Of a DNA stretch of 64,000 nucleotides, positions 26,457 through 45,242 are shown piece after piece. This stretch comes from a virus. The stretch spans positions 1-64,000 of IMG/VR virus record IMGVR_UViG_3300043313_001192; one strand, 5' to 3'. Every line of letters begins with the position of its first letter. The first letter of the stretch is position 1. The position numbers and the translations under genes were made by a program. A model generated the notes under the pieces. That model was given only the letters and a program-made list of their open reading frames with translations. It was not told the DNA's origin and searched no databases.

Positions 26457-26542
26457 CTGACGTTTACGCAGGGCGCCGTACGCCGCGCCCCGACCCGGTT
26501 TGACGCAACGTTGTTGTGTCCTGTAGGCTGACGTAGTCAGCC
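26457..26542 (+). promoter_or_regulatory. Module 1: 15-nt motif, promoter, start-site palindrome
   Basis: CTGACGTTTACGCAG (26457-26471); 52 nt to TAGGCT (26524-26529), with TTGACG 18 nt before it. Palindrome GGCTGAC-GTA-GTCAGCC at 26526-26542. Confidence 0.8.
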
Positions 26543-26568
26543 CAACCCGAACCCCCCTTGGAGTCCTC

Positions 26569-26793
26569 ATGTCGAACCTCACCGCTGCCCTGCCCGTCAC
26601 CGTCGCCGTCTCGGAGCGTGGCGCCGTGCTCATCGAGTCGGGCACCCGCACGGTCGCGATGTCGCCGTTCAGCGAGCGGGCACGCCGCCTCACCCTCGAC
26701 TTCGGACCGGGGACCTACGTCCTCGCCACCGACGTCGACGTCGAGGACCTGCCCACCACGGTCGCCGACGACCTCGCCGACGCCCTCGCCTGA
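26569..26793 (+). CDS. Small acidic hypothetical protein
   Basis: 74 aa, beta strands then an acidic helix ending in VEDLPTTVADDLADALA. The 95-aa protein at 27248 ends in a similar way (AAVVDDLADELKGW), so the two may be distant paralogues. Confidence 0.55.
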   Translation: MSNLTAALPVTVAVSERGAVLIESGTRTVAMSPFSERARRLTLDFGPGTYVLATDVDVEDLPTTVADDLADALA

Positions 26794-26807
26794 CCCGCTC
26801 GCCCCTC

Positions 26808-26831
26808 GCGGGGGAGCATCCGCTCCCCCGC
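26808..26831. terminator. 10-bp hairpin
   Basis: GCGGGGGAGC pairs with GCTCCCCCGC around ATCC, between two genes of one unit. Confidence 0.5.
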
Positions 26832-26854
26832 TCCCTGCCTCGAAAGGTTCCGCC

Positions 26855-27088
26855 ATGATCACCCTCACCCGCGAGTCCCCCACCTGCTACACGTTCAGCG
26901 CGCAGGAGGGCGACCTCACCGCCACCCTGGTCAAGTCCAGCGACAACGCCCGCTTCGGACAGGGCGCGTGGATGTGGAGCGTCGACGTCTGCGGCGCGCC
27001 TATCTCCACCGGGTCGGCTCCCTTCCGCGAGGCACGCGCCACGGTCGTCGCTGCCCTCGAATCCGTCGCCCCTGCCTTCACTGCCTGA
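26855..27088 (+). CDS. Small hypothetical protein
   Basis: 77 aa. TYTFSAQEGDLTATLVKS...WMWSVDVCG beta pattern and an Ala-rich C-terminal helix. Not recognised. CGAAAGG precedes the ATG. Confidence 0.5.
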   Translation: MITLTRESPTCYTFSAQEGDLTATLVKSSDNARFGQGAWMWSVDVCGAPISTGSAPFREARATVVAALESVAPAFTA

Positions 27089-27136
27089 CGCCCCGCGCGC
27101 CCCGCGCGCCCCGACCCCGAAAGGGGGAAACAGCTA

Positions 27137-27220
27137 CTGACGTTTACGCAGGGCGCCCCCTCGCCCCCGCGCGACCCGGTTCGCGATTGTCGGGACAGTG
27201 AGGTAGACTGACGTAGTCAG
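27137..27220 (+). promoter_or_regulatory. Module 2: motif, promoter, palindrome
   Basis: Motif 27137-27151; 52 nt to TAGACT (27204-27209); TTCGCG 18 nt upstream; palindrome CTGAC-GTA-GTCAG at 27208-27220. Confidence 0.8.
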
Positions 27221-27247
27221 CCCAAACCGAAACCCTCTGGAGTCACC

Positions 27248-27535
27248 ATGTCCCTCGCCCCCGCCACCGACGCCCCCGTCTGGTCCGTTGTCGACGCTGA
27301 CGACCGGTTCCCCGGTCGCTTCGACGCCCACGTCACCGCGATCACGATGGGTGGGATCGAGTTCCGCGTCCGGATCACGCCCGGTGACCGGGACACGTAC
27401 CTCGCCCCCGGCTTCACCGCCGATATCGACGGGGGACGCGGCCACCAGTGGACGCTGACGGTCCCCGGCGCGGGCCTCGACCGCCTCAAGGCTGCCGTGG
27501 TCGACGACCTCGCCGACGAACTGAAGGGGTGGTGA
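27248..27535 (+). CDS. Hypothetical protein, 95 aa
   Basis: Beta-rich with an acidic C-terminal helix. Similar ending to the 26569 product. Unknown role. Confidence 0.55.
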   Translation: MSLAPATDAPVWSVVDADDRFPGRFDAHVTAITMGGIEFRVRITPGDRDTYLAPGFTADIDGGRGHQWTLTVPGAGLDRLKAAVVDDLADELKGW

Positions 27536-27537
27536 GC

Positions 27538-27792
27538 ATGAAGGTCACGCCCGCTCAACTCGACACGCTCCGCACGGCTATCGCGCCGCTCGACACCGAC
27601 ACGGTCCGCGCGCGGTACCGCGCGGGTGACTTCCCGCGCGCCGCTCTGGTCCAGGACCTCGACAAGCGCTACCGGTGGGACCTGCTGCACGCGGCCACGG
27701 CAGGCACGACGATCGTCCCCGACCTGTACGACGCGGGATGCCACGACGCGCATATCGACACTGCCTTGCGCGCCGTGGTCACGCCCCTCTAG
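27538..27792 (+). CDS. Helical hypothetical protein
   Basis: 84 aa. Pattern VTPAQLDTLRTAIAPLDT...YRAGDFPRAALVQDLDKRYRWDLLHAA, an all-helical small phage protein. It starts 2 nt after the previous stop. Confidence 0.55.
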   Translation: MKVTPAQLDTLRTAIAPLDTDTVRARYRAGDFPRAALVQDLDKRYRWDLLHAATAGTTIVPDLYDAGCHDAHIDTALRAVVTPL

Positions 27793-27839
27793 CGTCCCCG
27801 AACGTGGCGCGTGTGGGCTGACACTTCGCGCGCCACCCG

Positions 27840-27870
27840 AACCCCCGCTGTGACGACCCCGGCGGGGGTT
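27840..27870 (+). terminator. Terminator hairpin
   Basis: AACCCCCGC and GCGGGGGTT pair (9 bp), followed by TCG; sits before module 3. Confidence 0.6.
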
Positions 27871-27901
27871 TCGTGCGCCTGCTCGCGCCGGAGCGGAGCT
27901 A

Positions 27902-27987
27902 CTGACGTTTACGCAGGGCAGGCTGACCCGCGCCGATGTCCGATTTGCTTCCTGTCGGGAGGGTGGGATAGGCTGACGTAGTCAGCC
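27902..27987 (+). promoter_or_regulatory. Module 3: motif, promoter, palindrome
   Basis: Motif 27902-27916; 52 nt to TAGGCT (27969-27974); TTGCTT 18 nt upstream; palindrome GGCTGAC-GTA-GTCAGCC at 27971-27987. Confidence 0.8.
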
Positions 27988-28007
27988 CAACCACTCAAGG
28001 AGTCCCC

Positions 28008-28436
28008 ATGGCCACCACCTCGCCCCGCGCCTCGCGCCGCCCGACCACGCTCGCCACCACCGACCGCGACGAGGCTCTCAACGGCCTGTTCACGACCGCG
28101 CTGGAGGGTGGCATCGGCTACTGGTCCACGTGCTCGGTCTACCACTGGGGCATCGACGTCGACGGTCGGCTCCGCGAGGCCAAGGACTTCATCGCGGTCG
28201 TGGAGGACTCCGAGTCCGAGGACGGTCCGGAGTACGTGATCGACCGCCACGTGATCCGGATCGGCGCGGCGCGCCTGTACCGCCACCTGATCGGTCTGGG
28301 CGAGCAGGCCAACTCCTACCACCTCGCCGCGATGCGCGACTTCGCCCGTGGCAACTGGGGCGACCTCGACTACGACTCGGACACGGCCGACATGGTCGTC
28401 CAGTTCGGACTCTTCGGGGAGTTGGTCTACAACTGA
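28008..28436 (+). CDS. Phage protein with GGIGYWS motif
   Basis: 142 aa. ALNGLFTTALEGGIGYWSTCSVYHW, then a DG-rich strand, VIDRHVIRIGAARLYRHLIGL and a C-terminal DYDSDTADMVVQFGLFGELVY. This order recurs in many actinophage genomes; role unknown. One-gene unit. Confidence 0.7.
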   Translation: MATTSPRASRRPTTLATTDRDEALNGLFTTALEGGIGYWSTCSVYHWGIDVDGRLREAKDFIAVVEDSESEDGPEYVIDRHVIRIGAARLYRHLIGLGEQANSYHLAAMRDFARGNWGDLDYDSDTADMVVQFGLFGELVYN

Positions 28437-28454
28437 CCCACCCGCTCGGCCGCT

Positions 28455-28491
28455 CGGCCCGATCCCCGCGAGGGGGTCGGGCCGATTTTTT
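28455..28491 (+). terminator. Rho-independent terminator with T6
   Basis: CGGCCCGATCCCC pairs with GGGGGTCGGGCCG (one wobble) around GCGA, followed by ATTTTTT. Confidence 0.85.
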
Positions 28492-28505
28492 CGCCCTCCC
28501 CCTCA

Positions 28506-28602
28506 CTGACGTTTACGCAGAGCTGGTCCCTGGCCGCACGCCCGACGCGCGACCTCGATTCGCGTTGTGTCTGGAGGGTGTGCTAGGCTGACGTAGTCAG
28601 CC
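28506..28602 (+). promoter_or_regulatory. Module 4: motif, promoter, palindrome
   Basis: Motif 28506-28520; 63 nt to TAGGCT (28584-28589); palindrome GGCTGAC-GTA-GTCAGCC at 28586-28602. Confidence 0.8.
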
Positions 28603-28624
28603 CCACCGAACAGAGGATCCCCCC

Positions 28625-29128
28625 ATGAGCGTCGCCTTCTCCATCGAGTCCAACTTCACCGGCGCCTTCACCGCGCACTGCTACGACCTCGACCTCACGC
28701 TCGGCCCGGTGGTCGGGCACGAGTCGATCCTCCCGCTGATCGCGGCGCACAAGGCGGAGTGCGACGAGTGCTCGGCCTACGGCATGTACTCGCAGGCCGT
28801 GCTCGACGTGGACGACACGCTCGACCTCAACGTCTCCAACCTCAACGCGCGCACCCTGCTGATCGCGCTCGGGCTGGACGATGAGGGTGACCTCTGCGGG
28901 ACGCTCGACGGCGAGGACTTCCTCGGCCGGGTCCTGCTCGCGCTCGCCACCGACCGCGACGACTCGGGCGTGCCGTACGCGGTCGTCGGTGGCGCGGAGG
29001 TCGGCCAGTCCGGCGCGACCGTGATCGACTGCGGCCGGTCGGTGGGCTACTTCGCGGACCGGTTCGGCGCGCTGCACGCGCTCGCGCTGGAGGCGGTCCG
29101 GCTCGGCCGTGGGATCCAGTGGTCCTAG
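28625..29128 (+). CDS. Hypothetical protein, 167 aa
   Basis: Acidic alpha/beta protein with CDECSAYG near residue 44. Mid-section LNVSNLNARTLLIALGLDDEGDLCGTLDGEDFLGRVLLAL. Not recognised beyond similarity to small phage proteins. One-gene unit. Confidence 0.6.
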   Translation: MSVAFSIESNFTGAFTAHCYDLDLTLGPVVGHESILPLIAAHKAECDECSAYGMYSQAVLDVDDTLDLNVSNLNARTLLIALGLDDEGDLCGTLDGEDFLGRVLLALATDRDDSGVPYAVVGGAEVGQSGATVIDCGRSVGYFADRFGALHALALEAVRLGRGIQWS

Positions 29129-29141
29129 GCCGGACGCGCAC

Positions 29142-29178
29142 CGACGCACCGGAGCCCCTCGCCGGGTCCGGTGCGTCG
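29142..29178. terminator. 12-bp bidirectional terminator
   Basis: CGACGCACCGGA pairs with TCCGGTGCGTCG between convergent genes. Confidence 0.65.
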
Positions 29179-29193
29179 TGCGTTCAGCTCCGG

Positions 29194-29400
29194 CTAGAAG
29201 TAGCCGGGCGTGTCCTTCTTGGGCGCGTCCATGTCGTCGCGGGTGTGCTCGCCCTTCTTCACCGGGTCCGCCTCGTCCTGCAGGTAATACTCCTGCTCGC
29301 GGGCGTTGGCGTGCTCGTGCCCCGGCTTCTGCGTCCGGGTGCCGGGGAGGTCGTCCCAGGAGTCCGGGTAGGTGCTGGCCTCGTTGCTCGACTGGCTCAT
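29194..29400 (-). CDS. Small hydrophilic protein on minus strand
   Basis: 68 aa, very polar and acidic, likely disordered (TRTQKPGHEHANAREQEYYLQDEADPVKKGEHTRDDMDAPKK). GAGAGGA precedes the ATG. One of three minus-strand genes embedded in the rightward modular region. Confidence 0.6.
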   Translation of the reverse strand: MSQSSNEASTYPDSWDDLPGTRTQKPGHEHANAREQEYYLQDEADPVKKGEHTRDDMDAPKKDTPGYF

Positions 29401-29423
29401 GACGGGTTCCTCTCGGGGGTGGT

Positions 29424-29441
29424 CCCTGCCCTTGCAGGGTA
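29424..29441 (-). promoter_or_regulatory. Minus-strand promoter with start-site palindrome
   Basis: Read leftward, TACCCT (29441-29436) runs into CCCTGC-AAGG-GCAGGG (29439-29424). Same -10-plus-palindrome design as the rightward modules, without the 15-nt motif. Confidence 0.5.
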
Positions 29442-29475
29442 CGCGCTCGCGGCGTGGTTAGCGATACACCAGGCA

Positions 29476-29572
29476 CTGACGTTTACGCAGGCCAGGCCCC
29501 GACGATCGGGAGCGTAGAGCCCCGACGATTGGTAGCGGACGCAACGGTGTGGTACGCTTACTTCAGTAAGCG
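29476..29572 (+). promoter_or_regulatory. Module 5: motif, promoter, palindrome
   Basis: Motif 29476-29490; 62 nt to TACGCT (29553-29558); TTGGTA 18 nt upstream; palindrome CGCTTACT-TC-AGTAAGCG at 29555-29572. Confidence 0.8.
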
Positions 29573-29670
29573 AGACACCCGCTACGGATGCGAAACCGTG
29601 GGGTCTGACTGGAATCTCAGACCGGGGGTCCCGCTCACTCCCCCGCCACATCGACGCAAGGACACAGACC
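29573..29670 (+). promoter_or_regulatory. Long structured leader
   Basis: About 100 nt between promoter and ATG 29671, versus about 25 nt in other modules. Contains GGTCTGA / TCAGACC (7-bp stem, 8-nt loop) and CGG/CCG short stems, then CGCAAGGACACAG as the ribosome site. Could hold a regulatory RNA element. Confidence 0.4.
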
Positions 29671-30009
29671 ATGACCGAGACCGTGACCCTCCTCCCGACC
29701 GTGCGCATCCACCGCGTGCTGTTCCTTGAGGAGGACGTGTGGGAGGGCGACTTCCCCCGCGACAACGTCCGCACCGAGGACTTCGACTTCGACCCGGCCA
29801 CCGAGACCGAGGAGGAGATTCTCGACGGCGCCGTGCGCGTGTTCGAGCGGGAGGGCCTGACGTTCTCGGCCACCGGCAACGACTGGGCCGCTAACCCTGA
29901 CGGCACCGTGATCGTCAACTACGCCACCGCGCAGCGCGAGGAGGTCACCGGTCACCTCATCGGTTTCACCGACGAGCAGGCCGCGACGATCATCGAGCGG
30001 GTGGGCTGA
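29671..30009 (+). CDS. Acidic hypothetical protein
   Basis: 112 aa, strongly acidic. DFDFDPATETEEEILDGAVRVFEREGLTFSATGNDWAANPDGTVIVNY is a pattern of small single-domain phage proteins. Role unknown. Confidence 0.6.
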   Translation: MTETVTLLPTVRIHRVLFLEEDVWEGDFPRDNVRTEDFDFDPATETEEEILDGAVRVFEREGLTFSATGNDWAANPDGTVIVNYATAQREEVTGHLIGFTDEQAATIIERVG

Positions 30010-30184
30010 TAGCGATCCTGCGCTGAGCCGCCTAGGCTGAGGCCCGTAGCCGCAAGTCCCCCCGACGACGCGGCTGCGGGTCCCTCGCGTGGTCGGGGTG
30101 CACCCCGGCTGCTGACCCGAGACAGCGCCGGAGGACTCCCTCCCAGGACGCCCCGTTTCCCCCACGCGAGGGATCCCCTCCCCA
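30010..30184 (+). other. Structured non-coding gap
   Basis: 175 nt with no ORF. TCCCTCGCGTGG (30080-30091) can pair with CCACGCGAGGGA (30160-30171), enclosing further GC stems. A TAGGCT also occurs at 30031. Possible small RNA or large terminator; uncertain. Confidence 0.3.
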
Positions 30185-30272
30185 CTGACGTTTACGCAGA
30201 GCTGCCCGTCGCCGGGGCGTGCGCTGCGGGTGCGCTGTTGATCGTGGTGTGGTAGGCTTACGTCAGTAAGCC
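30185..30272 (+). promoter_or_regulatory. Module 6: motif, promoter, palindrome
   Basis: Motif 30185-30199; 53 nt to TAGGCT (30253-30258); palindrome GGCTTAC-GTCA-GTAAGCC at 30255-30272; leader AACGACGTAAGGACA. Confidence 0.8.
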
Positions 30273-30291
30273 AACGACGTAAGGACACCCG

Positions 30292-30459
30292 ATGAACGAC
30301 CACCTCCGCCTCACCGCCCGCCTGATCGCCCTGCTGCTGGGCGTGCTGGCCGTGGCCCTCGCCCTGACCGGGGTCTACCTGATCGACTTCCGTAGCGACT
30401 GCCACGACGACGGCGGGCACTTCAGCGTCGACGGCGCGACGGCGTGGTGTCGGTACTGA
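30292..30459 (+). CDS. Small single-pass membrane protein
   Basis: 55 aa. One transmembrane helix (LIALLLGVLAVALALTGVYLI), then a short domain with two cysteines (CHDDGGHF...WC). Coupled to the next gene by TGATG. Confidence 0.55.
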   Translation: MNDHLRLTARLIALLLGVLAVALALTGVYLIDFRSDCHDDGGHFSVDGATAWCRY

Positions 30460-30914
30460 TGGGCACCCCGATCACCGGCCCGCGTGCCGACAAGCATGGC
30501 AACCTGATCGCCCGCGAGGGACAAGACCGCTGCGGCTGCGGCGTCAAGTACTGGGAGAACGACCACTGCACCGACTGCGGCACGCACGTGCGGCACGCGA
30601 TCCAGCCGGAACTGCCCGAGACCCCGAACCCGGTCATCGCGATGGTCGCCGCTGACGATGTCGAGCACGACCCGTGGGGCACCGCGATGGGCTGGGCGTT
30701 CGCGGTGGCCGAGAACCTGCACTTCCGCGCCGATGCGCCAGTGCCGGACTCGCTCGGCTACCGGCCCGCCATGGGCGCGACCGATATCGAGGACGAGGAC
30801 TATCAGGCGACCATCATCGCCGAGGAGGATTACGACGTGGTCGTGCTGACCGAGGCTGCGGAGATGCTCAGCGTGTTCCTCGATGAATGCAAGCGGCTCG
30901 GGAAGGACTACTGA
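30459..30914 (+). CDS. Hypothetical zinc-ribbon protein
   Basis: 151 aa. CGCGVKYW...CTDCGTHV near residues 25-45 is a zinc ribbon; the rest is acidic alpha/beta. Not recognised. Confidence 0.6.
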   Translation: MGTPITGPRADKHGNLIAREGQDRCGCGVKYWENDHCTDCGTHVRHAIQPELPETPNPVIAMVAADDVEHDPWGTAMGWAFAVAENLHFRADAPVPDSLGYRPAMGATDIEDEDYQATIIAEEDYDVVVLTEAAEMLSVFLDECKRLGKDY

Positions 30915-30932
30915 AGGGAGGCCGGGACACCG

Positions 30933-30961
30933 GCGCGCCAGCTGAAGGCCAGCTGGCGCGC
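30933..30961 (+). terminator. 12-bp terminator hairpin
   Basis: GCGCGCCAGCTG and CAGCTGGCGCGC pair perfectly, 5-nt loop; followed by module 7. Confidence 0.65.
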
Positions 30962-30973
30962 GGTGGAACGTCA

Positions 30974-31069
30974 CTGACGTTTACGCAGGCACCGGCGGCC
31001 TGGCGCCGCGGCCGTCGGCCCTCGATGGCGTGACGGTCGGGAGGGTGTGGTATGCTGACGTAGTCAGCA
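30974..31069 (+). promoter_or_regulatory. Module 7: motif, promoter, palindrome
   Basis: Motif 30974-30988; 62 nt to TATGCT (31051-31056); palindrome TGCTGAC-GTA-GTCAGCA at 31053-31069. Confidence 0.8.
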
Positions 31070-31091
31070 AGACACAACGACGGAGGACGAG

Positions 31092-31262
31092 ATGCCCAGC
31101 ATGACCACGGCGGCCAAGCACGGCGGCGCGAACCTCGCGCTCGCCAAGGCGATGGTCGGCAAGCGCTCCAGCGGTGCCGCTGGTCCGCACGCCGACAAGC
31201 GTGCCAAGCGTGCCCGCACCCGCAGCGCGCAGCGCGCCCGCGTCCTGAAGGACTGGGCGTGA
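31092..31262 (+). CDS. Small highly basic protein
   Basis: 56 aa, about 30% Lys/Arg (GPHADKRAKRARTRSAQRARVLKDW). A basic tail of this kind could bind nucleic acid. Overlaps the next gene's GTG by 4 nt. Confidence 0.5.
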   Translation: MPSMTTAAKHGGANLALAKAMVGKRSSGAAGPHADKRAKRARTRSAQRARVLKDWA

Positions 31263-31642
31263 AGGAGGACGCTGCCTACAGCCTGGCGACCTGGATCGTG
31301 ATGGTCGTGGGCTTCCTGATCGGCGGCGTGATGGGCGCCTTCAAGTCGCTGCTGGGATTCCTGGCCCTCGCTGCCGTGCTGGCCGTGGGCGCGCCGCTGG
31401 TCTACATCGCCGTGGTGGTGCTCTGGCTGACGGGCGTGACCGTGACCGCGTGCACGTCCGGACTCATCCGAGGGCTCACCGACTCCGAGGGTGGCCCGGT
31501 GGTCACCGGCGGCGTGCTGCTGATCGGTGCCACGCTGGTCGCGCTGACCGTCACCGGGAACGGGCTGCTCGCGCTCGCGATCGGGATCGGGCTGCCGGTC
31601 GGGTTCTGGTACTGGAAGCGCCCGACGATCACGGTGGCCTGA
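31259..31642 (+). CDS. Multi-pass membrane protein
   Basis: 127 aa with about four hydrophobic segments (WIVMVVGFLIGGVMGAF; LLGFLALAAVLAVGAPLVYIAVVVLWLTGVTV; VTGGVLLIGATLVALTV; LLALAIGIGLPVGFWYW). Role unknown. Confidence 0.6.
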   Translation: MKEDAAYSLATWIVMVVGFLIGGVMGAFKSLLGFLALAAVLAVGAPLVYIAVVVLWLTGVTVTACTSGLIRGLTDSEGGPVVTGGVLLIGATLVALTVTGNGLLALAIGIGLPVGFWYWKRPTITVA

Positions 31643-31847
31643 ACGCACGAATCCCGGCTAGATACACGAGGTGCCTAGCCGGGATTCGCTCTGCCTTCAC
31701 CGTCTTTGGTCTGGGCCGAAGCCCTTCACATCGACGGATCTGACTGCAGCCTTTGCCTTCACGCTCAAGGTCCCGAAGGACCGAGTGCTCTCCGGCTCTG
31801 GCAGGTCCCCAACATATCCAGCCCGCGCCGGAGCGCGCAACCCCTCA
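31643..31847 (+). other. Non-coding gap
   Basis: After the terminator hairpin at 31648-31688 the remaining 160 nt hold no supported gene; several short GC stems only. Confidence 0.4.
31648..31688 (+). terminator. 14-bp terminator hairpin
   Basis: CGAATCCCGGCTAG pairs perfectly with CTAGCCGGGATTCG around a 13-nt loop. Confidence 0.7.
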
Positions 31848-31920
31848 CTGACGTTTACGCAGCTCCCACCGTGGTGATTCGCGATCGTCGGGACGGTGTG
31901 GTACGCTTTCCTTGAAAGCG
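31848..31920 (+). promoter_or_regulatory. Module 8: motif, promoter, palindrome
   Basis: Motif 31848-31862; 39 nt to TACGCT (31902-31907); TTCGCG 18 nt upstream; palindrome CGCTTTC-CTT-GAAAGCG at 31904-31920. The -10 matches others, the palindrome sequence does not. Confidence 0.8.
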
Positions 31921-31942
31921 AACGACAACGACGGAGGACACC

Positions 31943-32485
31943 ATGCAGGACTTCTTCACCCACACCGAGGCGGACGCCGGTGCATGGGACCGCAACCACC
32001 TGGAGGCCGACGACTTCAGCGACGCACCCTCGCGCGCCGAGGCCGAGGCGGATCTGGCTGCTGACGCCGCCGACGCCTATCACGCCGGTCCGGACACGGT
32101 GGTCGGTTACGGCATCCGCTGCGCCCACTGCCACAACCGTCACGAGACCATCGCTGACGTCCGCTGGTGCAGCGACCTTCAGGCCGAGTACCGCGCCGAG
32201 GCGCTGGCCGAGCAGGCCGCCGAGGCTCGCGCGGAGCGCTACTTCGAGGAGGGTCCCGAGTCCTTCCAGATGATGCGTGCCGCCGAAGAGGCCCACGATC
32301 AGGCCCGCGCGTGGAACGACCCGTGGATCACCGGCGAGCCGCCCGCGACCACCACGATCAACCACGGCAACAGCGGAGCCTGCGAGGGCGGGGCCTGCTC
32401 GTGGCACGACAAGTGCCGCAAGCACCGCGAGCAGGACGTCGCCAACGGCGACCGGCTCGGCAACTTCCGCGCCTACAACGACTGA
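31943..32485 (+). CDS. Hypothetical protein with CxxC-H zinc motif
   Basis: 180 aa. Acidic helical N-half, then GYGIRCAHCHNRHETIADVRWC, a zinc-finger-like motif common in actinophage small proteins, then long helices and a Cys/His-rich end (CEGGACSWHDKCRKH). Confidence 0.6.
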   Translation: MQDFFTHTEADAGAWDRNHLEADDFSDAPSRAEAEADLAADAADAYHAGPDTVVGYGIRCAHCHNRHETIADVRWCSDLQAEYRAEALAEQAAEARAERYFEEGPESFQMMRAAEEAHDQARAWNDPWITGEPPATTTINHGNSGACEGGACSWHDKCRKHREQDVANGDRLGNFRAYND

Positions 32486-32529
32486 GGTGCGGCCGGGCGC
32501 CTGGCCACGCGCCGAGCGTCAGAACGTCA

Positions 32530-32611
32530 CTGACGTTTACGCAGCTGGCCCCGCCTGGCCGCGGGTACGACTCCCGCCTGATAGCCCGACGTCTGGACAG
32601 TGTGGTAAACT
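32530..32611 (+). promoter_or_regulatory. Module 9: motif and promoter, no clear palindrome
   Basis: Motif 32530-32544; 61 nt to TAAACT (32606-32611). Here the start-site symmetry is absent, which makes it a useful natural control. Confidence 0.7.
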
Positions 32612-32643
32612 CTCCTTGTACGCAAACGACGAAGGGACACCCC

Positions 32644-33120
32644 ATGAAGATCCACTCCGACTCGGTCGAGTCGCTCGACATCCGCAAGGCCGCGACGCTC
32701 GCCGCCGTCGACTTCACCCGCTTCGACCTGAAGGGCTCGCGCTCACGTGCGCAGGGCTTCGACATCCTCCTGACCGGCAACTCCGGCCGTCGCCAGAACG
32801 GCGGCGCGGATGAGGCGGCGTCGTGGGACCAGTGGGGAATCTTCCTCGGTCACCTCTACCGGCTCGACCCGAACCTGAAGACGCCCTACTACATCGACGG
32901 GGACCACTTCGTCTGGGTCACCGGCAACCGGTTCACCCCCGACTTCACCGCCGGTGACTGCCACCGCCGCCACCGGTGGGGGATGGGTCGCCCCGCGATC
33001 ACCGGGGCCTACTCGGTCGCCGAGTGCGAAGAGGGCAAGGACCCGTGCGGCGCGGTCCAGCGCTGGATCATCCACCGCCACGGCCAGCCCGCCGTCACGT
33101 GGGCAGACCTCAACCGCTGA
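32644..33120 (+). CDS. Hypothetical protein, 158 aa
   Basis: Basic/aromatic protein; NSGRRQNGG...WDQWGIFLGHLYRLDP...YYIDGDHFVWVTGNRFTPDF and CHRRHRWG. Pattern seen in small actinophage proteins; no known activity. Confidence 0.6.
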   Translation: MKIHSDSVESLDIRKAATLAAVDFTRFDLKGSRSRAQGFDILLTGNSGRRQNGGADEAASWDQWGIFLGHLYRLDPNLKTPYYIDGDHFVWVTGNRFTPDFTAGDCHRRHRWGMGRPAITGAYSVAECEEGKDPCGAVQRWIIHRHGQPAVTWADLNR

Positions 33121-33136
33121 GCGAGGCGGCGCGCGG

Positions 33137-33280
33137 CTAGTAGTACCGGTGCCGGGTGCCGCCGACGGGCACGAACCAGAGGACCAGCCCGACGATGATC
33201 AGGATCGCCCCGATGATCGTCAGCCAGTAGATGCCGAGCACCAGGCCGAGCACCAGCAGGATGAGACCGAGGATGACCAT
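33137..33280 (-). CDS. DUF6131-like small membrane protein
   Basis: 47 aa. MVILGLILLVLGLVLG, a second hydrophobic helix (LTIIGAILIIVGLVLWFV) and an RHRYY tail match the DUF6131 pattern. Minus strand inside the rightward region. TAGGCT (33292-33287) lies 6 nt before the ATG, so the transcript is probably leaderless. Confidence 0.7.
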   Translation of the reverse strand: MVILGLILLVLGLVLGIYWLTIIGAILIIVGLVLWFVPVGGTRHRYY

Positions 33281-33298
33281 GCCCGCAGCCTACCGCTA

Positions 33299-33388
33299 CT
33301 GACGTTTACGCAGCTTTCCCACTGTGGTGGTCTAGTCCCGACTGGCGCGTGTCCGGACACTGGTGTATTGTTCTTCTTGTAAGAACAA
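33299..33388 (+). promoter_or_regulatory. Module 10: motif, promoter, palindrome
   Basis: Motif 33299-33313; 52 nt to TATTGT (33366-33371); arms TTGTTCTT (33368-33375) and AAGAACAA (33381-33388). The motif sits between this promoter and the divergent 33280 promoter. Confidence 0.75.
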
Positions 33389-33413
33389 CGACGGACCGAC
33401 CGAAGGACACACC

Positions 33414-33857
33414 ATGGACACCACGCACTACCTTGACCTCGTCGCGGGCGGCACCGACCACTTCACCGTGGAGTTCCACACCGACACCAAGCCTGCCGCT
33501 GCGCACAAGAGCAAGCGGCTCCGCAAGGTCGTCACGGCGGTCTGCATGACCGGCGCGTCCTACGCGAACCTGCGGGTGAACAAGGACAAGGAGACGGGTC
33601 CGCTGCCGTGGGGCACGTGGATGGACGGGGCCGAGCCGTTCGTGATCCAGCACAAGGGCAACGACTACGCCCGCCTGTACGTGATCGAGAACGGCGTGCG
33701 AGCGATCTACACCGTGGACGGCGAGGTCGTGAGCCGCGAGGACTACGAGTCCTTCCTGACGCCCTCGCAGCGCAACGCGCCGCGTCCGAACGGTGGCACC
33801 ATCACCGTCAAGATGAGCGGCGTGCGGCTGGTCGGAGAGCCAGCCTTCGGGCGCTGA
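33414..33857 (+). CDS. Hypothetical protein, 147 aa
   Basis: Basic N-half (HKSKRLRKVVTAVCMTGASYANLRV) then beta-rich. PNGGTITVKMSGVRLVGEPAFGR end. Not recognised. Confidence 0.55.
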   Translation: MDTTHYLDLVAGGTDHFTVEFHTDTKPAAAHKSKRLRKVVTAVCMTGASYANLRVNKDKETGPLPWGTWMDGAEPFVIQHKGNDYARLYVIENGVRAIYTVDGEVVSREDYESFLTPSQRNAPRPNGGTITVKMSGVRLVGEPAFGR

Positions 33858-34061
33858 GGCGCCCCCACAGACTCCGCCCCTCGATAGGCGGGGCTGCACT
33901 TCCCAAGGACCCGGTGAGAGGAAGCCGCGCAAGCGGGGGAAGGCTCACCGGCGAGGACGGTGGCAGCGACCTAATCAGTGGTTCGACCACATGGGTATCG
34001 AGTGACACGTCCCGGCGCGCCCATGATCGCGCCGGGGCGTTACTCGTTCCGGCCCGAGCTA
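33858..34061 (+). other. Non-coding gap with stems
   Basis: 204 nt without a supported ORF. Hairpins: CCGCCCCTCGATAGGCGGGG; GGTGAG...CTCACC (33913-33949) enclosing a GC loop; and the terminator at 34011-34036. Might encode a short structured RNA. Confidence 0.35.
34011..34036 (+). terminator. 9-bp terminator hairpin
   Basis: CCCGGCGCG pairs with CGCGCCGGG just before module 11. Confidence 0.55.
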
Positions 34062-34148
34062 CTGACGTTTACGCAGGGCGGCCCGCGGCGGCCCAGGCGC
34101 GTTGGCTTGTGGCCGTAGGGACAGTGTGGTATGCTTACGCAGTAAGCA
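34062..34148 (+). promoter_or_regulatory. Module 11: motif, promoter, palindrome
   Basis: Motif 34062-34076; 53 nt to TATGCT (34130-34135), preceded by GGACAGTGTGG; palindrome TGCTTAC-GCA-GTAAGCA at 34132-34148. Confidence 0.8.
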
Positions 34149-34168
34149 AACGACGAAGGGACACCCCC

Positions 34169-34705
34169 ATGAGCCACTCCTCCACCCCCACCCGCACGAA
34201 CAAGTTCGGTGGCAAGTGCGCCGACTGCGGCGCGTGGGTCCTGCCCGGCGCAGGCACCCTGTCCGGCTCGCGCGGCGCATGGGTCACCCGGCACCTCGGC
34301 ACCTGCCCGCCGCCCAAGGGCACCCCGACCAAGAACGCCGAGCCGGGCTACTACGTCCGCCCCGCCGACGGCCGCGCCGTGGTCGTGGTCGCGGGCAAGC
34401 GCCACCCCGAGCGCACCTACGGCAAGGTGCTCACCTTCCCGGCCGACGGCAGCCGCCCGTCGTGGGACTACGTGCGCGGCGCGGGCTACTCGGTCGCCGA
34501 CCTGCGGCCGATGACCGCCGCCGACGCGGCCGAGATGGGCCTCTCGCACGGCTTCTGCATCCGCTGCTGCGCGCCCCTCGGTGGCGAGACGCTGAGCGCC
34601 GCCGTGTCCGCGCTCGTGGGCTACGGCGAGACCTGCGCCAAGCGGATGGGCTGGCCCTACCCGAAGGGCGTCGCGGCCCAGCGCGCCCGGCTCGCCGAGG
34701 GCTGA
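34169..34705 (+). CDS. Hypothetical protein with two zinc clusters
   Basis: 178 aa. CADCGAWV near the start with HLGTC later, and FCIRCCAPLGG / ETCAKRMGWPYP near the end, the latter like small recombination/replication zinc proteins of phages. Role unknown. Confidence 0.6.
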   Translation: MSHSSTPTRTNKFGGKCADCGAWVLPGAGTLSGSRGAWVTRHLGTCPPPKGTPTKNAEPGYYVRPADGRAVVVVAGKRHPERTYGKVLTFPADGSRPSWDYVRGAGYSVADLRPMTAADAAEMGLSHGFCIRCCAPLGGETLSAAVSALVGYGETCAKRMGWPYPKGVAAQRARLAEG

Positions 34706-34717
34706 GCCCCAGCCACT

Positions 34718-34746
34718 GGCCCCGCACCCCGAGAGGGTGCGGGGCC
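34718..34746 (+). terminator. 12-bp terminator hairpin
   Basis: GGCCCCGCACCC pairs with GGGTGCGGGGCC around CGAGA, then TTCG. Confidence 0.7.
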
Positions 34747-34783
34747 TTCGCGCGCCCCAGGCCCGGCGGCCCGCGCAACGTCA

Positions 34784-34878
34784 CTGACGTTTACGCAGCT
34801 GCCCAACCCTCAAGCGCGCCTTCAGCGTTGCGCAGTTGTGCGTCGTCTGGACAGTGTGGTATGCTTACTTCAGTAAGC
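34784..34878 (+). promoter_or_regulatory. Module 12: motif, promoter, palindrome
   Basis: Motif 34784-34798; 61 nt to TATGCT (34860-34865), preceded by GGACAGTGTGG; palindrome GCTTACT-TC-AGTAAGC at 34863-34878. Confidence 0.8.
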
Positions 34879-35840: not shown

Positions 35841-35857
35841 TGCCTTGCCGGGGCCTA

Positions 35858-35937
35858 CTGACGTTTACGCAGAGCTGGCCCTGGTGGGCTCGTCTTGCTT
35901 CTGACTGCACGATGCTGTAGGCTTACATCAGTAAGCC
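35858..35937 (+). promoter_or_regulatory. Module 13: motif, promoter, palindrome
   Basis: Motif 35858-35872; 45 nt to TAGGCT (35918-35923); TTGCTT 17 nt upstream; palindrome GGCTTAC-ATCA-GTAAGCC at 35920-35937. Confidence 0.75.
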
Positions 35938-36582: not shown

Positions 36583-36676
36583 GGTCCGCCCCATGGATCC
36601 CATGATCGCCTACCTCAAGCGTCGCGCCGCCCAGTTCATCACTGGGCGGCGCAGTCGTTTCGACAGCGCGGCGCCA

Positions 36677-36759
36677 CTGACGTTTACGCAGAGCTGCCCC
36701 AGTTGCCTGGCCGCGCATCCCTCCAACTTCAAGCATCTGTCGAGGTGATGGGGTAGACT
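36677..36759 (+). promoter_or_regulatory. Module 14: motif and promoter, no clear palindrome
   Basis: Motif 36677-36691; 62 nt to TAGACT (36754-36759). Long leader with three AACGAC repeats before ATG 36822. Confidence 0.7.
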
Positions 36760-37587: not shown

Positions 37588-37614
37588 TTCGTGCGTTCGA
37601 GGGGCAAGACGTCA

Positions 37615-37700
37615 CTGACGTTTACGCAGCTCCAGGGCCTGAAGCCCACCAGGCTGCTTGGGAACTGACGCTACCCTGTGATATGCTGACGTAGTCAGCA
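37615..37700 (+). promoter_or_regulatory. Module 15: motif, promoter, palindrome
   Basis: Motif 37615-37629; 52 nt to TATGCT (37682-37687); TTGGGA 18 nt upstream; palindrome TGCTGAC-GTA-GTCAGCA at 37684-37700. Confidence 0.8.
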
Positions 37701-38712: not shown

Positions 38713-38751
38713 GCCCGACGCCGACGAGTTCTGTCGGTGGTCGCTGGTTCA

Positions 38752-38857
38752 CTGACGTTTATGCAGAGCTGGCCCGAACCCCCTCCCCCGCCGGACGATC
38801 CTTCTCGACCTGAGTTGGTGAATCCGGATTCCCCATGTTACGATTACGGAGTAATCG
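38752..38857 (+). promoter_or_regulatory. Module 16: variant motif, promoter, palindrome
   Basis: CTGACGTTTATGCAG (one change) at 38752-38766; 72 nt to TACGAT (38839-38844); palindrome CGATTAC-GGA-GTAATCG at 38841-38857. A reversed GATTCCCCA element lies just upstream of the -10. Confidence 0.75.
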
Positions 38858-39237: not shown

Positions 39238-39240
39238 GCC

Positions 39241-39609: not shown

Positions 39610-39707
39610 GCCTGTCGAGAGAGGATGGATCTAGCCCGGCTCCCGCTGCAGTCCCCCCACTGCCGGGAGTCGGGTCTAGTCTGTCCCCAGCGACGAAGGG
39701 ACGAGCG

Positions 39708-39911
39708 ATGTACGTGCATCGAGACAAGCGTGGCGGGGTCACTCTGACACCCGACGAGGCCGAGGTCTGTGACCTGTTCCTGATGCTGGTCATCGAGGGC
39801 GAGGACATTCCGCACGCGGCCCAGTACGCGCTGAGCACGATGGTGCTGCCCGACCCGACGTTCGCTGCCTGGCTGAGCCTGGGGATGCTCTCGCACGAGC
39901 GAGCTGACTGA
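39708..39911 (+). CDS. Small hypothetical protein
   Basis: 67 aa, mostly helical, preceded by a CGACGAAGGGACGAGCG leader. A candidate TAGTCT lies at 39677. The stop overlaps the next 15-nt motif (39908). Confidence 0.55.
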   Translation: MYVHRDKRGGVTLTPDEAEVCDLFLMLVIEGEDIPHAAQYALSTMVLPDPTFAAWLSLGMLSHERAD

Positions 39912-39983
39912 CGTTTACGCAGGCTGAGCCGCATCGTCACGAGGCGCTGTGTCCACTCGTTGTGGTAAACTGTCCCTAGACAG
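39908..39983 (+). promoter_or_regulatory. Module 17: motif, promoter, palindrome
   Basis: Motif 39908-39922, beginning inside the last codons of the preceding gene; 43 nt to TAAACT (39966-39971); CTGTC-CCTA-GACAG at 39970-39983. Confidence 0.7.
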
Positions 39984-40011
39984 AACGACGAAACGACCAA
40001 AGGACACACCC

Positions 40012-40197: not shown

Positions 40198-40346
40198 TGG
40201 AGCCGTACTGCGCCGACTGCGGGCTGAGCCTGCACGCGCAGGCCGAGAAGGCGATCGCCTCCGGTGAGTGGCAGATGGTCTGGGCCGACATGGACGGCTC
40301 GTGGATCTGCCCGCAGACCGGCAACGAGCACCGGCCGCAGGACTAG
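40197..40346 (+). CDS. Small zinc-like protein
   Basis: 49 aa. CADCGLSLH...WICPQTGNEH suggests a zinc knuckle. Converges with and overlaps the end of the minus gene 40343-40591. Confidence 0.5.
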   Translation: MEPYCADCGLSLHAQAEKAIASGEWQMVWADMDGSWICPQTGNEHRPQD

Positions 40347-40591
40347 GCCGAGGCCGAGTCCTGCATCTTGTTCAGGCGCTCCTGCAGTTCAGCGATCTGG
40401 CTCTGGATGCGCTCCGCATCCACGCGACCACGTGGCTTCGGCTCGACACCTTCCAGCGTCGCCTGCTGGGCGTAGAGCGCGTCGAAGCGCTCCTGGTTCT
40501 CGTTGATGAGAAGCTGCGTGGCCTTGTAGCGCGCCCTGTTGGCTGCGCGCACCTGCGCCTTGTGCTTCTCGGGATCTGATCTGGTGACCAT
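40343..40591 (-). CDS. Basic coiled-coil protein on minus strand
   Basis: 82 aa. MVTRSDPEKHKAQVRAANRARYKATQLLI is a recurrent small actinobacterial/phage start, followed by a heptad helix (IQSQIAELQERLNKMQ). Nucleic-acid binding is plausible but unproven. Confidence 0.65.
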   Translation of the reverse strand: MVTRSDPEKHKAQVRAANRARYKATQLLINENQERFDALYAQQATLEGVEPKPRGRVDAERIQSQIAELQERLNKMQDSASA

Positions 40592-40706
40592 GGTCTGGGG
40601 TCCCCTGTCCTTTGTCGTTCCCCACTGCTGACGAGAGAGCCTCTGCTCGACTCATGTTCTGCACTGCCAGTCTATGCAAACACAGCCGCGTTCACAACAC
40701 CACACA
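40592..40706 (-). promoter_or_regulatory. Minus-strand promoter and leader
   Basis: TAGACT (40674-40669, read leftward) is followed by a 78-nt leader carrying GGGGAACGACAAAGGACAG, the same AACGAC-AAAGGAC ribosome region as the rightward modules. So this minus gene belongs to the same expression style. Confidence 0.5.
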
Positions 40707-40721
40707 CTGACGTTTACGCAG
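40707..40721 (+). repeat. Module 18: 15-nt motif, distant from its promoter
   Basis: Exact motif, but 220 nt upstream of the next TAGGCT (40942). It breaks the spacing rule of other copies. Confidence 0.75.
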
Positions 40722-40941
40722 ACAGGGCTGTACCCGCAACCATGTTGGGGCAAACACCGAGGCTGTGCGAGGCTCAGCCTGCTGAGCCGCTACGCCTTGC
40801 TGAGCAGGGGTTCCCTGCCAGCAGATTTGTGTCGGACCCCTGCCCTAGGGTTGCCCTGTTAGGCAAACCCACAGGGACAGAACAGACTAGACCAGTTCGT
40901 GCCCACCCGCCCCTCGATTATGGAGTGGCGCAATGGTGTGG
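40722..40941 (+). other. Non-coding leader-like gap
   Basis: 220 nt of lower GC content without a supported ORF. Stems: GGCTCAGCCTGCTGAGCC, GCAGGGG/CCCTGC and GGGTTGCC/GGCAAACCC. Could encode a small RNA or be an insertion between motif and promoter. Confidence 0.35.
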
Positions 40942-40961
40942 TAGGCTCTGGGTACAGAGCC
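40942..40961 (+). promoter_or_regulatory. Promoter of the MoxR gene with palindrome
   Basis: TAGGCT (40942-40947) preceded by TGTGG; palindrome GGCTCTG-GGTA-CAGAGCC at 40944-40961. Confidence 0.7.
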
Positions 40962-40990
40962 AGACAAGTGAACGACGAAAGGACACGCAC

Positions 40991-42328: not shown

Positions 42329-42333
42329 GACTT

Positions 42334-42363
42334 CCGGCCCGCGCTGTTGCAAGCGCGGGCCGG
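42334..42363 (+). terminator. 12-bp terminator hairpin
   Basis: CCGGCCCGCGCT pairs perfectly with AGCGCGGGCCGG, 6-nt loop. Confidence 0.65.
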
Positions 42364-42441
42364 GGGACCGTTCACAGTGAACGGCTCTGTAGTGCTGGCG
42401 CCAGTCCGCGTTCGGGCTGGCGTCAGCCAGGAGAGCAGCTA

Positions 42442-42551
42442 CTGACGTTTACGCAGGACAGCGCGACGTGCGCGAGGGGCGCAGGACGTGGCAAGATCAG
42501 CAGTGCCGAGGGATGCACCGATTAGGTAATGACGAGCCAGTGGTGTAAACT
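42442..42551 (+). promoter_or_regulatory. Module 19: motif and promoter
   Basis: Motif 42442-42456; 89 nt to TAAACT (42546-42551). Only a weak CTGA...TCAG symmetry follows. Confidence 0.65.
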
Positions 42552-42609
42552 GAGGTTACGAGGTCAGGGTGACTCCCCGACACAGACAGAACGACGAAAG
42601 GACACGGCC

Positions 42610-44439
42610 ATGGGCCACATCTTGTACGGCAAGGTCGAGAGCACTGTGAACAAGAGCGACGACGACTGGTACGGCGTCGCGGCGCAGGTCGGCAAGTTCA
42701 CGAACAAGCGTGCGCACCGCAGCGATATCACTGCTGTCGTGTCCAGCACTGCTGGCATGGGCGCTCCCGCGTGCTTCATCCCGAGCCTTGCCGAGATGCA
42801 CATCAACACCGAGGCCGCTCCCATGGGTCCTCCCGACAAGGTCAATCTGGACGACCGCATGTGGATGCTCACCTACGCCCCGAGCGTGGGCGCGTGCACC
42901 CACGAAGCGGCACACGCCCGCCACACGCACTGGGACCCCCGCGACCTGATGGAGAACTACGAGGCCACCCGCAAGATGGTCGACGTGATCACCACGCTGG
43001 AAGAGCCGCGCATCGAGGCGCAGGCGCTGCGCTTCCACCCTGACTCGCGTCCCTTCCTGCGAGGCTGCGCGATGGAGATTGTCGGGCGCGACTTCAAGAT
43101 CAGCGACACCCGCTACGGCGCGGCGACTGCTGCTGGTCTGCTGCTGGCCCGCGTGGATGCCAAGGTGCTGACCAAGGCCGAGGCGCGTACGTTCCGCCGC
43201 GATATCGCTGCGGTGCTGGGCGACACGCTGGACGAGTTGGAGCCGCTGTGGCAGCGCTTCCTGCGTCTGCACGACCACGACTACGCGGGCATGGTCGAGG
43301 TTGCCGCCGCATGGCTGGACGTGCTGGGCGAGGACCCCGAGGACGAGTCCGATATGGCGGGCGAGTCGATGATGGGCGAGAGCCTGTCCGGCGAGGGCGA
43401 GGGCGAGGGCGAGGGCTCTGGCAAGGGCGAGGGCGAGGGCGACGAGTCCGAGGGCGAGGCGTCCGGCTTCGGGGACAAGATCATGGGCAAGGTGCACATC
43501 ACCGAGTCCAAGATGGACAAGGAGGTCACCGAGGCTCGCGGCGAAGAGCGCGCCGAGCGTCGTCGCGCCGAGTCCAAGGCCGACGCCGAGCGCCGCAAGT
43601 CTGCCGAGGGTCCGCACGCCGAGGCGTTCACGCACACCGGGCTGCACGGCTACTCACCGGACGGGTTCGCGCACTACTCGCACTCGCGTCCCCCGACCGC
43701 CGACGAGCGTCGTGCGGCCAAGATGCTGGCCCGCTCGTTGGAGAAGATCGACTACCGGGACCGGGCCGTGACCAAGGTCCGCAGCGTGGTTCCTCCCGGC
43801 CGTCTGGTCGGGCGGGCTGCGGTGCAGGCCGACGCGATGATCGAGCAGGGCCGGGACGCCTCTGGTGTCGAGGTCTGGTCGGGCAAGCGCCGCAAGCGGG
43901 TCGAGTCCACGCCGCTGACGATCGGGTTCCTCGGGGATATCTCGGGGTCGATGAACGCGGCCATGGAGCCGCTGGCATCGAGCCAGTGGGTGCTGAGCAC
44001 CGCAGGCGCGCACGTGGACGCCAAGGTCGCCAGCGTGCACTTCGGTGACCGGGTGCACGGCATCACGCCCGCTGGGGTCCGCGAGAAGGACGTGCGGCTG
44101 TTCGCTCCCTACGACGGCAGCGAGGCGTTCAAGGACGCGGCGCTGGCGATCGACAAGGAACTGAACCTGCTGGACGGGCGGGGTGCTCGCATCCTGTTCA
44201 TCGCCAGCGATGGGCAGTACGTGAACGGCACCGATATGGCCTACGCCCGCACGTGGATGCCGCTCGCCAAGCGCAAGGGTGTCGCGGTGATCTACCTGAA
44301 CTTCCTCGGGTCGATGAACCCCACCGGCGTGGGCGGTGCCAAGGTGATCGACTGCGTCCGCAAGTCGCCCGCCGAGGTCGCCGCGCTGTGCGGCAAGGCC
44401 GCACTCGCGGAGGTCCGCAAGATCGACCAGCGGGTCTAG
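42610..44439 (+). CDS. VWA-domain protein with HExxH motif, partner of MoxR
   Basis: 609 aa. Residues 96-110 (CTHEAAHARHTHW) carry HEAAH, a metalloprotease-type motif that also occurs in CobT/NorD-like VWA proteins. A Glu/Gly/Ser low-complexity linker (residues about 255-290) is followed by charged helices, then the VWA domain with MIDAS DISGSM near 443 and later FIASDGQY. The MoxR-VWA pairing suggests an ATP-driven protein-remodelling module. ATG 42610 has GAAAGGACACGG upstream. Confidence 0.85.
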   Translation: MGHILYGKVESTVNKSDDDWYGVAAQVGKFTNKRAHRSDITAVVSSTAGMGAPACFIPSLAEMHINTEAAPMGPPDKVNLDDRMWMLTYAPSVGACTHEAAHARHTHWDPRDLMENYEATRKMVDVITTLEEPRIEAQALRFHPDSRPFLRGCAMEIVGRDFKISDTRYGAATAAGLLLARVDAKVLTKAEARTFRRDIAAVLGDTLDELEPLWQRFLRLHDHDYAGMVEVAAAWLDVLGEDPEDESDMAGESMMGESLSGEGEGEGEGSGKGEGEGDESEGEASGFGDKIMGKVHITESKMDKEVTEARGEERAERRRAESKADAERRKSAEGPHAEAFTHTGLHGYSPDGFAHYSHSRPPTADERRAAKMLARSLEKIDYRDRAVTKVRSVVPPGRLVGRAAVQADAMIEQGRDASGVEVWSGKRRKRVESTPLTIGFLGDISGSMNAAMEPLASSQWVLSTAGAHVDAKVASVHFGDRVHGITPAGVREKDVRLFAPYDGSEAFKDAALAIDKELNLLDGRGARILFIASDGQYVNGTDMAYARTWMPLAKRKGVAVIYLNFLGSMNPTGVGGAKVIDCVRKSPAEVAALCGKAALAEVRKIDQRV

Positions 44440-44453
44440 CCCGCACCCAAGCC

Positions 44454-44528
44454 GGGGTCCGGCTCACCGGCTCGTCACCGGGCGCGTGAGGTCGTTACGT
44501 CCTTTCGTCCCTCACCGAGCCGGACCCC
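44454..44528 (+). ncRNA. Candidate structured RNA or complex terminator
   Basis: GGGGTCCGGCTC (44454-44465) pairs perfectly with GAGCCGGACCCC (44517-44528). Inside, GTGAGG (44486-44491) pairs with CCTCAC (44510-44515), plus a CCGG-rich stem. The 75-nt element lies between the VWA gene and the next coding unit. Confidence 0.45.
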
Positions 44529-44576
44529 TCTCCACCAGCACCACCCAACGACACAACGACACGAACGGAGCACGGC

Positions 44577-44771
44577 ATGTTGAACACAACGATCAGAGGC
44601 TGGCAGGTGGTCTTCGGACTGCGTTGCCGGTGGGGCTTCCGAGCCGCTGACGGCACGGAGGTCTGGCGGCAGCGCGGCATCGCGCTGGCGGTGCTGCAGG
44701 AGGACACGATGATGTTCCTGCTGCGGGTGCCCTACACACTGCGCACCTACCCAGGAGTGGTGTGGTCATGA
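44577..44771 (+). CDS. Small hypothetical protein
   Basis: 64 aa, beta/basic (GWQVVFGLRCRWGFRAADGTEVWRQRG). Not recognised. ATGA overlap with the WGR gene. Confidence 0.5.
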   Translation: MLNTTIRGWQVVFGLRCRWGFRAADGTEVWRQRGIALAVLQEDTMMFLLRVPYTLRTYPGVVWS

Positions 44772-45109
44772 GCACACCCGACTTCCGCGATCAGGACCCG
44801 GTCTGGGTTCGGTACGCCGAGCTGACCGGTGGCGGGCACGACAAGTTCTACGAGCTGACCATCCACCTGCACGACGACGGCACCTTCTACGTCCAGAAGC
44901 GGTGGGGCCGACGCCCCGACGCGGGCGGCGGGCAGATCAAGGTGGAGCCGTACCAGTCGCTGAACGCAGCGCAGACGGTGAGCCTGAACATGCTGGGCGA
45001 GAAGATCGCCAAGGGCTACCGGGAGACCGAGCGTCCGCACGGCGCCGGGCAGCGGGTCTTCCGCGAGGTCGGGCACGACTTCTACGCCGACGGTGACGAG
45101 GCGTTCTAG
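44768..45109 (+). CDS. WGR-domain protein
   Basis: 113 aa. KFYELTIHLHDDGTFYVQKRWGRRPDAGGGQIK, then LNAAQTVSLNMLGEKIAKGYRE, is the WGR fold (central W-G-R, C-terminal KGY helix). WGR domains bind nucleic acids, as in PARPs. Here it stands alone. Confidence 0.8.
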   Translation: MSTPDFRDQDPVWVRYAELTGGGHDKFYELTIHLHDDGTFYVQKRWGRRPDAGGGQIKVEPYQSLNAAQTVSLNMLGEKIAKGYRETERPHGAGQRVFREVGHDFYADGDEAF

Positions 45110-45118
45110 CCGCATCGA

Positions 45119-45140
45119 CCGGCCGCCGCCAGGCGGCCGG
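45119..45140 (+). terminator. 9-bp terminator hairpin
   Basis: CCGGCCGCC pairs with GGCGGCCGG around GCCA, just after the WGR stop; followed by TTCC. Confidence 0.6.
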
Positions 45141-45157
45141 TTCCGGCAGTAACGTCA

Positions 45158-45242
45158 CTGACGTTTACGCAGCCTGGCGCCGACCTGGTGGGCTGGGCCT
45201 GGTTTGCCTGATGACCTAGATGGTGTAGACTGTTCTCAACAG
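45158..45242 (+). promoter_or_regulatory. Module 20: motif, promoter, palindrome
   Basis: Motif 45158-45172; 53 nt to TAGACT (45226-45231); palindrome CTGTT-CTC-AACAG at 45230-45242; leader AACGACGACAAGGACA. Confidence 0.8.

Follow-up and report, generated by a model that had tools for sequence, protein, structure and literature searches.

A co-oriented 16-nt element in helical phase with the promoters of a phage gene block, a likely site for a transcriptional regulator

The window analysed here, 64,000 nucleotides in full, covers positions 1 to 64,000 of IMG/VR record IMGVR_UViG_3300043313_001192, a virus contig of 176,996 bases from a large actinobacterial phage, and contains a block of small genes of unknown function in which an asymmetric 16-nt element, ACTGACGTTTACGCAG, recurs upstream of promoters. 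By its terminase, the phage is closest among named relatives to Actinomycetia phage DSL-LC01 (55% identity) and shares 46–49% identity with the Microbacterium phages A3Wally, Cece and Pumpernickel; the affinities of its primase and of a vWA-type protein agree with this placement. Besides the small genes, the block encodes an ArdC-like antirestriction protein, a MoxR-type AAA ATPase together with the partner of this ATPase, a sigma-70 region-4-like protein and a stand-alone protein resembling the C-terminal domain of the RNA polymerase alpha subunit (alpha-CTD), while a protein with several helix-turn-helix (HTH)-like modules is encoded just downstream. For comparison we used the contig IMGVR_UViG_3300043313_001352 (referred to below as the relative), whose terminase is 98% identical and whose DNA identity amounts to roughly 70–90% in most aligned pieces.

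The initial annotation had listed 20 intergenic copies of a 15-nt version of the element, CTGACGTTTACGCAG, and all of them were recovered on the plus strand at the listed positions, 19 exactly and the one at 38752 with a single change. With up to three mismatches allowed, the window holds 25 matches against 1.25 expected (the largest number among 100 shuffles was 5), including three copies beyond the earlier list: an exact one at 46981, a one-change copy at 50142 (CTGACGTTTACGCAC) and a one-change copy on the minus strand at 50869. A search of the entire 177-kb record with up to two mismatches returned 22 plus-strand copies and one minus-strand copy, all within 26,457–50,883, and the relative carries 22 copies at the same threshold in a single block, all but one on the same strand. 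The copies and the associated features are as follows, with distances measured from the element to the downstream −10 box.

26456..26471, plus: element; −10 TAGGCT at 26524, 52 bp downstream
27136..27151, plus: element; −10 TAGACT at 27204, 52 bp
27901..27916, plus: element; −10 TAGGCT at 27969, 52 bp
28505..28520, plus: element 3' of a hairpin and T6 terminator-like site; −10 at 28584, 63 bp
29475..29490, plus: element between divergent genes; −10 at 29553, 62 bp
30184..30199, plus: element; −10 at 30253, 53 bp
30973..30988, plus: element; −10 at 31051, 62 bp
31847..31862, plus: element; −10 at 31902, 39 bp (61 bp in the relative)
32529..32544, plus: element; −10 TAAACT at 32606, 61 bp
33298..33313, plus: element between divergent genes; −10 TATTGT at 33366, 52 bp (62 bp in the relative)
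34061..34076, plus: element; −10 at 34130, 53 bp
34783..34798, plus: element upstream of the ArdC-like gene; −10 at 34860, 61 bp
35857..35872, plus: element; −10 at 35918, 45 bp
36676..36691, plus: element; −10 TAGACT at 36754, 62 bp
37614..37629, plus: element; −10 at 37682, 52 bp
38751..38766, plus: element with one change (TATGCAG; the relative has the identical change); −10 at 38839, 72 bp
39907..39922, plus: element overlapping the end of gene 39708-39911; −10 at 39966, 43 bp
40706..40721, plus: element between divergent genes; nearest family-type −10 at 40942, 220 bp
42441..42456, plus: element; −10 TAAACT at 42546, 89 bp, which is out of phase (the relative has 74 bp)
45157..45172, plus: element preceded by AACGTCA (palindromic extension AACGTCA-C-TGACGTT); −10 at 45226, 53 bp
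46980..46995, plus: exact copy in the sigma-70 region-4-like gene, encoding LTFTQ; kept in the relative; next −10 at 47149, 153 bp
50141..50156, plus: one-change copy in the alpha-CTD-like gene, encoding LTFTH; identical variant in the relative
50869..50883, minus: one-change copy in gene 50750-50962
50962..50985, plus: degenerate element AACGTCACTGACTTTTCTGCTG upstream of the zinc-finger/HTH operon; conserved in the relative
46552..47151, plus: sigma factor-like protein of RNA polymerase (region 4), with 95% identity to its counterpart in the relative
49902..50258, plus: stand-alone RNA polymerase alpha-CTD-like protein, assigned by sequence
51600..52352, plus: leading candidate reader of the element; carries several HTH-like modules plus an HNH-associated repeat and shares 93% identity with its counterpart in the relative
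26524..26545, plus: inverted repeat over the −10 box, GGCTGAC-GTA-GTCAGCC (example); the arms vary by promoter and stay self-complementary

The boundaries of the element emerged from 15 orthologous intergenic regions of the two phages, in which the motif is 98.7% identical and the preceding A invariant (100%), with most flanking 5-bp blocks at 40–65%. The shared flanks described in the initial annotation hold only in part, as AGCTG follows about a quarter of the copies and the preceding base is A in 20 of 20 (TCA in 8, CTA in 7), and in several intergenic copies a leftward extension yields the palindrome AACGTCA-C-TGACGTT. Likewise, the claim that the motif precedes nearly every transcription unit is valid for units on the plus strand from 26.4 to 47 kb, with exceptions: a palindromic promoter at 25523 and a likely promoter near 48.5 kb lack a copy, and the copies at 29476, 33299 and 40707 lie between divergent genes. 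Throughout, the motif is situated upstream of the promoter, 95–195 bp before the ATG, and its distance from the preceding stop codon ranges from −4 to 205 nt.

Units between motifs have been gained and lost between the two phages, and the genes at 26457-27902 have no counterpart in the relative, yet the motif persists. Such a pattern would be expected if the 16-mer served as a short homology or recombinase target for the exchange of promoter-gene units, and the initial annotation had named a recombination unit as one possible function. This reading predicts neither the spacing described below, with its whole-turn changes, nor the conserved copies inside the sigma-like and alpha-CTD-like genes, and no matching site array was found in the other relatives, which renders it quite improbable; as the main function, recombination is thus unsupported. 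The word was also sought elsewhere: across IMG/VR it produced many single, chance-like matches and an array in one contig only, it did not exceed chance in ten IMG/VR relatives picked by terminase, the stretches read from three of these ten contained no comparable promoter array, and the word was absent from the stretches of DSL-LC01, Pumpernickel, A3Wally, Cece and GodonK as well as from open-access literature text.

Downstream of 19 of the 20 intergenic copies, a −10 box of the form TANNNT is found within 120 bp, preceded by a strongly conserved TGTGG. The promoter logo shows a strong extended −10 (TGTGGTAnrCT), while the −35 position retains a weak TTG in which only TT at −24/−23 is conserved. 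A purine occupies the expected start, 6 nt past the box, in 20 of 21 promoters. About nine of the promoters (about half), in the range 27137-34870, additionally share a second element between −35 and −10, GTCNGGACAG, often seen as TGTC-N-GGACA.

In both phages, motif and −10 box lie at discrete distances from each other. In the window this distance takes values of 39, 43, 45, 52 (five times), 53 (three times), 61 (twice), 62 (three times), 63, 72 and 89 bp, and in the relative of 40, 43, 52 (three times), 53 (twice), 61 (twice), 62 (three times), 63, 64, 72 and 74 bp (twice), which gives classes of 39–45, 52–53, 61–64 and 72–74 bp plus one case at 89 bp. For a period of 10.5 bp, R is 0.66 for the window and 0.83 for the relative (p ≤ 1e-4 vs a smoothed null), and the phasing persists when three look-alike units are collapsed (p = 0.0007–0.0009). 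When sites of both phages were pooled into a non-redundant set of 26, R was 0.69, a value reached in 0 of 50,000 draws, and the best period was 10.5; the window taken by itself leaves the period unfixed, with a best value of 9.2–9.5 in the scanned ranges. Most spacers are unrelated to each other in sequence. Where the spacing of orthologous promoters changed by more than 5 bp, four of five changes were +12, −10, +22 and +10 bp, about one or two turns, and the fifth was 15 bp. As controls, the distances from the −10 box to the ATG and from the motif to the ATG showed, as expected, no phasing (p = 0.79 and 0.72).

These observations allow a reading of the element, to which we assign a probability of roughly two in three: the 16-nt word would be an asymmetric site for a sequence-specific regulator, most likely an activator, that controls about 20 phage promoters as a block. 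The earlier proposal that the motif is bound by something appears well supported by its sharp 16-nt footprint, its fixed orientation and its phasing to the downstream −10 box. Because the site is asymmetric, kept in a single orientation and presented on one face of the helix at whole-turn distances, a DNA-bound protein touching RNA polymerase, and most simply an activator, is suggested. If the start is placed 12 nt beyond the initial base of the −10 box, the centre of the motif comes to lie near −60, −72, −82 or −92; a regulator bound at whole helical turns upstream would face RNA polymerase from one side of the DNA, in the manner of a class I activator, and would most likely recruit the polymerase to promoters that have a good extended −10 but a weak −35. 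Repression from upstream through polymerase contact would give a geometry identical to that of an activator.

A repressive role is also at the heart of an alternative modelled on the stoperators of cluster A mycobacteriophages, in which a monomeric phage repressor on asymmetric sites would block read-through or the next initiation. The layout is alike, in that some 20 asymmetric sites lie between genes in one orientation and a protein with tandem HTH modules is available as candidate reader (PMC9283540). Several copies moreover come after terminator-like hairpins. Against this stands the phasing to the downstream promoter, the strongest signal here and one that is not known for stoperators. 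A protein bound 40–75 bp upstream of the −10 box would also not block RNA polymerase sterically, and no integrase or lysogeny module was noted, although a systematic search for one was not made. We consider a stoperator-like array unlikely. Neither phage records nor solved structures, among them the L5/TipsytheTRex repressor, yielded a significant homologue of the HTH protein at 51600-52352, in a comparison limited to this one protein of the genome. The same hairpins, and above all the copy at 28506 directly after a hairpin and T6 tract, could alternatively point to a signal that acts in the RNA of the upstream unit, as a terminator or in processing or anti-termination. However, no plus-strand upstream transcript is expected at the three copies between divergent genes, the distance from the stop codon is variable, helical phasing is a property of DNA and an Rfam search gave no match, so that an RNA-level role is highly improbable.

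Several points weigh against the activator reading as well. The copy at 42442 is out of phase (89 bp, with 74 bp in the relative), as is the coding copy at 46981 (153 bp), and the copy at 50142 has no obvious promoter nearby. The transcription start itself is deduced from the −10 box. In the relative, the control distance from the stop codon to the motif was unphased (p = 0.71), whereas the window gave a nominal signal, with p = 0.01 or, under a cruder gene rule that admits spurious stops, p = 0.0014. We count this signal as chance, and it advises caution about small samples. Finally, the AlphaFold model of the candidate reader discussed below, which shows four helix-turn-helix-like bundles, is of low confidence (pTM 0.32).

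Selection probably acts on the DNA of the copies within the sigma-like and alpha-CTD-like genes, because the chance of spelling LTFTQ or LTFTH with exactly this word through codon choice alone is about 0.0008 per gene (arithmetic from codon usage; TTT makes up 1.8% of the phenylalanine codons of the phage genome). Both the sigma-gene copy and the variant copy in the alpha-CTD-like gene keep their positions in the relative, the flanks of the former being too alike between the two phages to add evidence of selection at the DNA level.

As the leading candidate reader of the 16-mer we regard the protein encoded at 51600-52352, just downstream of the block, which has HTH-type matches and an HNH-associated repeat. 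A PDB fold search with its model returned no significant match, and relatives of the protein in viral and genome collections came from the same contig only. Between the two phages it is 93% identical, more than the alpha-CTD-like protein (78%) or the zinc-finger-like neighbour (68%). The conserved degenerate copy, AACGTCACTGACTTTTCYGCTG, before the HTH operon would fit autoregulation. If the activator reading holds, its reader might nevertheless be a host transcription factor exploited by the phage, a variant that overlaps with this reading and does not add to it. Host factors commonly serve early phage genes, and the motif is confined to 26–51 kb, a region of small genes that includes the ArdC-like antirestriction protein; the limitation of the array to one phage lineage and the conserved HTH candidate encoded by the phage itself make a host reader rather unlikely.

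The sigma-like and alpha-CTD-like proteins could act as partners of the binder. The identity of the latter (49902-50258) rests on its sequence, because its AlphaFold model (pLDDT 41) is unusable; by eye, R265, N268 and K298 of E. coli alpha, which contact DNA, have counterparts in it. A still more specific scheme, in which a dedicated regulon of about 20 promoters is served by its own class I-type activator, the sigma-like and alpha-CTD-like proteins work in one machine and the gene-internal copies provide feedback, is doubtful. The sequence alone shows the word to be coupled to its promoters through the helix turn, a coupling from which an orthogonal set of regulator and promoters for actinobacteria might be derived, and it also connects the alpha-CTD-like and sigma-like proteins with the same block.

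Inverted repeats cover the −10 box and the start site at 18 of the 21 promoters. Their arms vary (GGCTGAC, GCTTAC, GCTTTC, TTGTTCTT, CTGTC, CGATTAC and others) yet remain complementary, and when arms were re-paired between promoters, 0 of 2000 trials reached the observed mean arm length, as if symmetry itself, rather than sequence, had been selected. Since only the right arm would be transcribed, the repeat is a property of the DNA. Two common −10 palindromes hold pieces of the 16-mer, namely CTGACGT in GCTGACGTAGTCAGC and TTACGCAG in GCTTACGCAGTAAGC, and one protein may read both these palindromes and the 16-mer.

Two neighbouring features are mentioned for completeness. The minus-strand gene at 33137-33280 encodes a 47-residue hydrophobic protein with 100% identity in the relative; its transcript is probably leaderless, starting at the ATG, and a 16-mer overlies its −35 region. 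A tRNA-Glu call at 34687-34773 is doubtful, as it overlaps a coding end and a terminator-like hairpin.

Among known systems, the cluster A stoperators of L5 and TipsytheTRex are nearest by layout, comprising upwards of 20 short, asymmetric sites that point in the direction of transcription, lie in promoter regions and small gaps between genes and are recognized by a monomeric protein carrying two DNA-binding domains (PMC9283540). The present array shares the multiple asymmetric, transcription-oriented sites but differs in sequence, in its location far upstream at helical-turn spacing, in the two copies within genes and in its effect, which is probably positive. Nearest by geometry are class I promoters, with a single site upstream of the −35 at whole-turn positions as found here; the E. 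coli CRP sites are centred at −61.5, −71.5, −82.5 and −92.5 (PMC11894529). The CRP site is palindromic, whereas here an asymmetric 16-mer is used in one orientation at about 20 promoters of one phage. In cluster K mycobacteriophages and Microbacterium cluster EF, the SAS and ESAS likewise form a repeated, co-oriented intergenic word upstream of many genes; SAS occupies the ribosome binding site, with ESAS directly upstream (PMC7302621), in contrast to the 95–195 bp that separate the present word from the start codon. The same source describes an 18-bp asymmetric motif in Microbacterium cluster EC, with 12 co-oriented copies in small intergenic regions 21–30 bp upstream of the start codon, makes no mention of promoter phasing for it in the passages used, and calls the role of both SAS/ESAS and the 18-mer unclear (PMC7302621). 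DSL-LC01 combines more than 20 near-identical promoters with a shared leader, AACGACGAAAGGACA; there the promoter itself is near-invariant (CTAAAGATGTTATAAT) and a separate upstream word was not found. Its promoters (NATTCTAAAGATGTTATAAT, at 8313-49998) stand in one orientation before single genes, another solution to the same layout. Repeated intergenic words are known in many actinophages; in the present array the word is coupled to the promoter through the turn of the helix.

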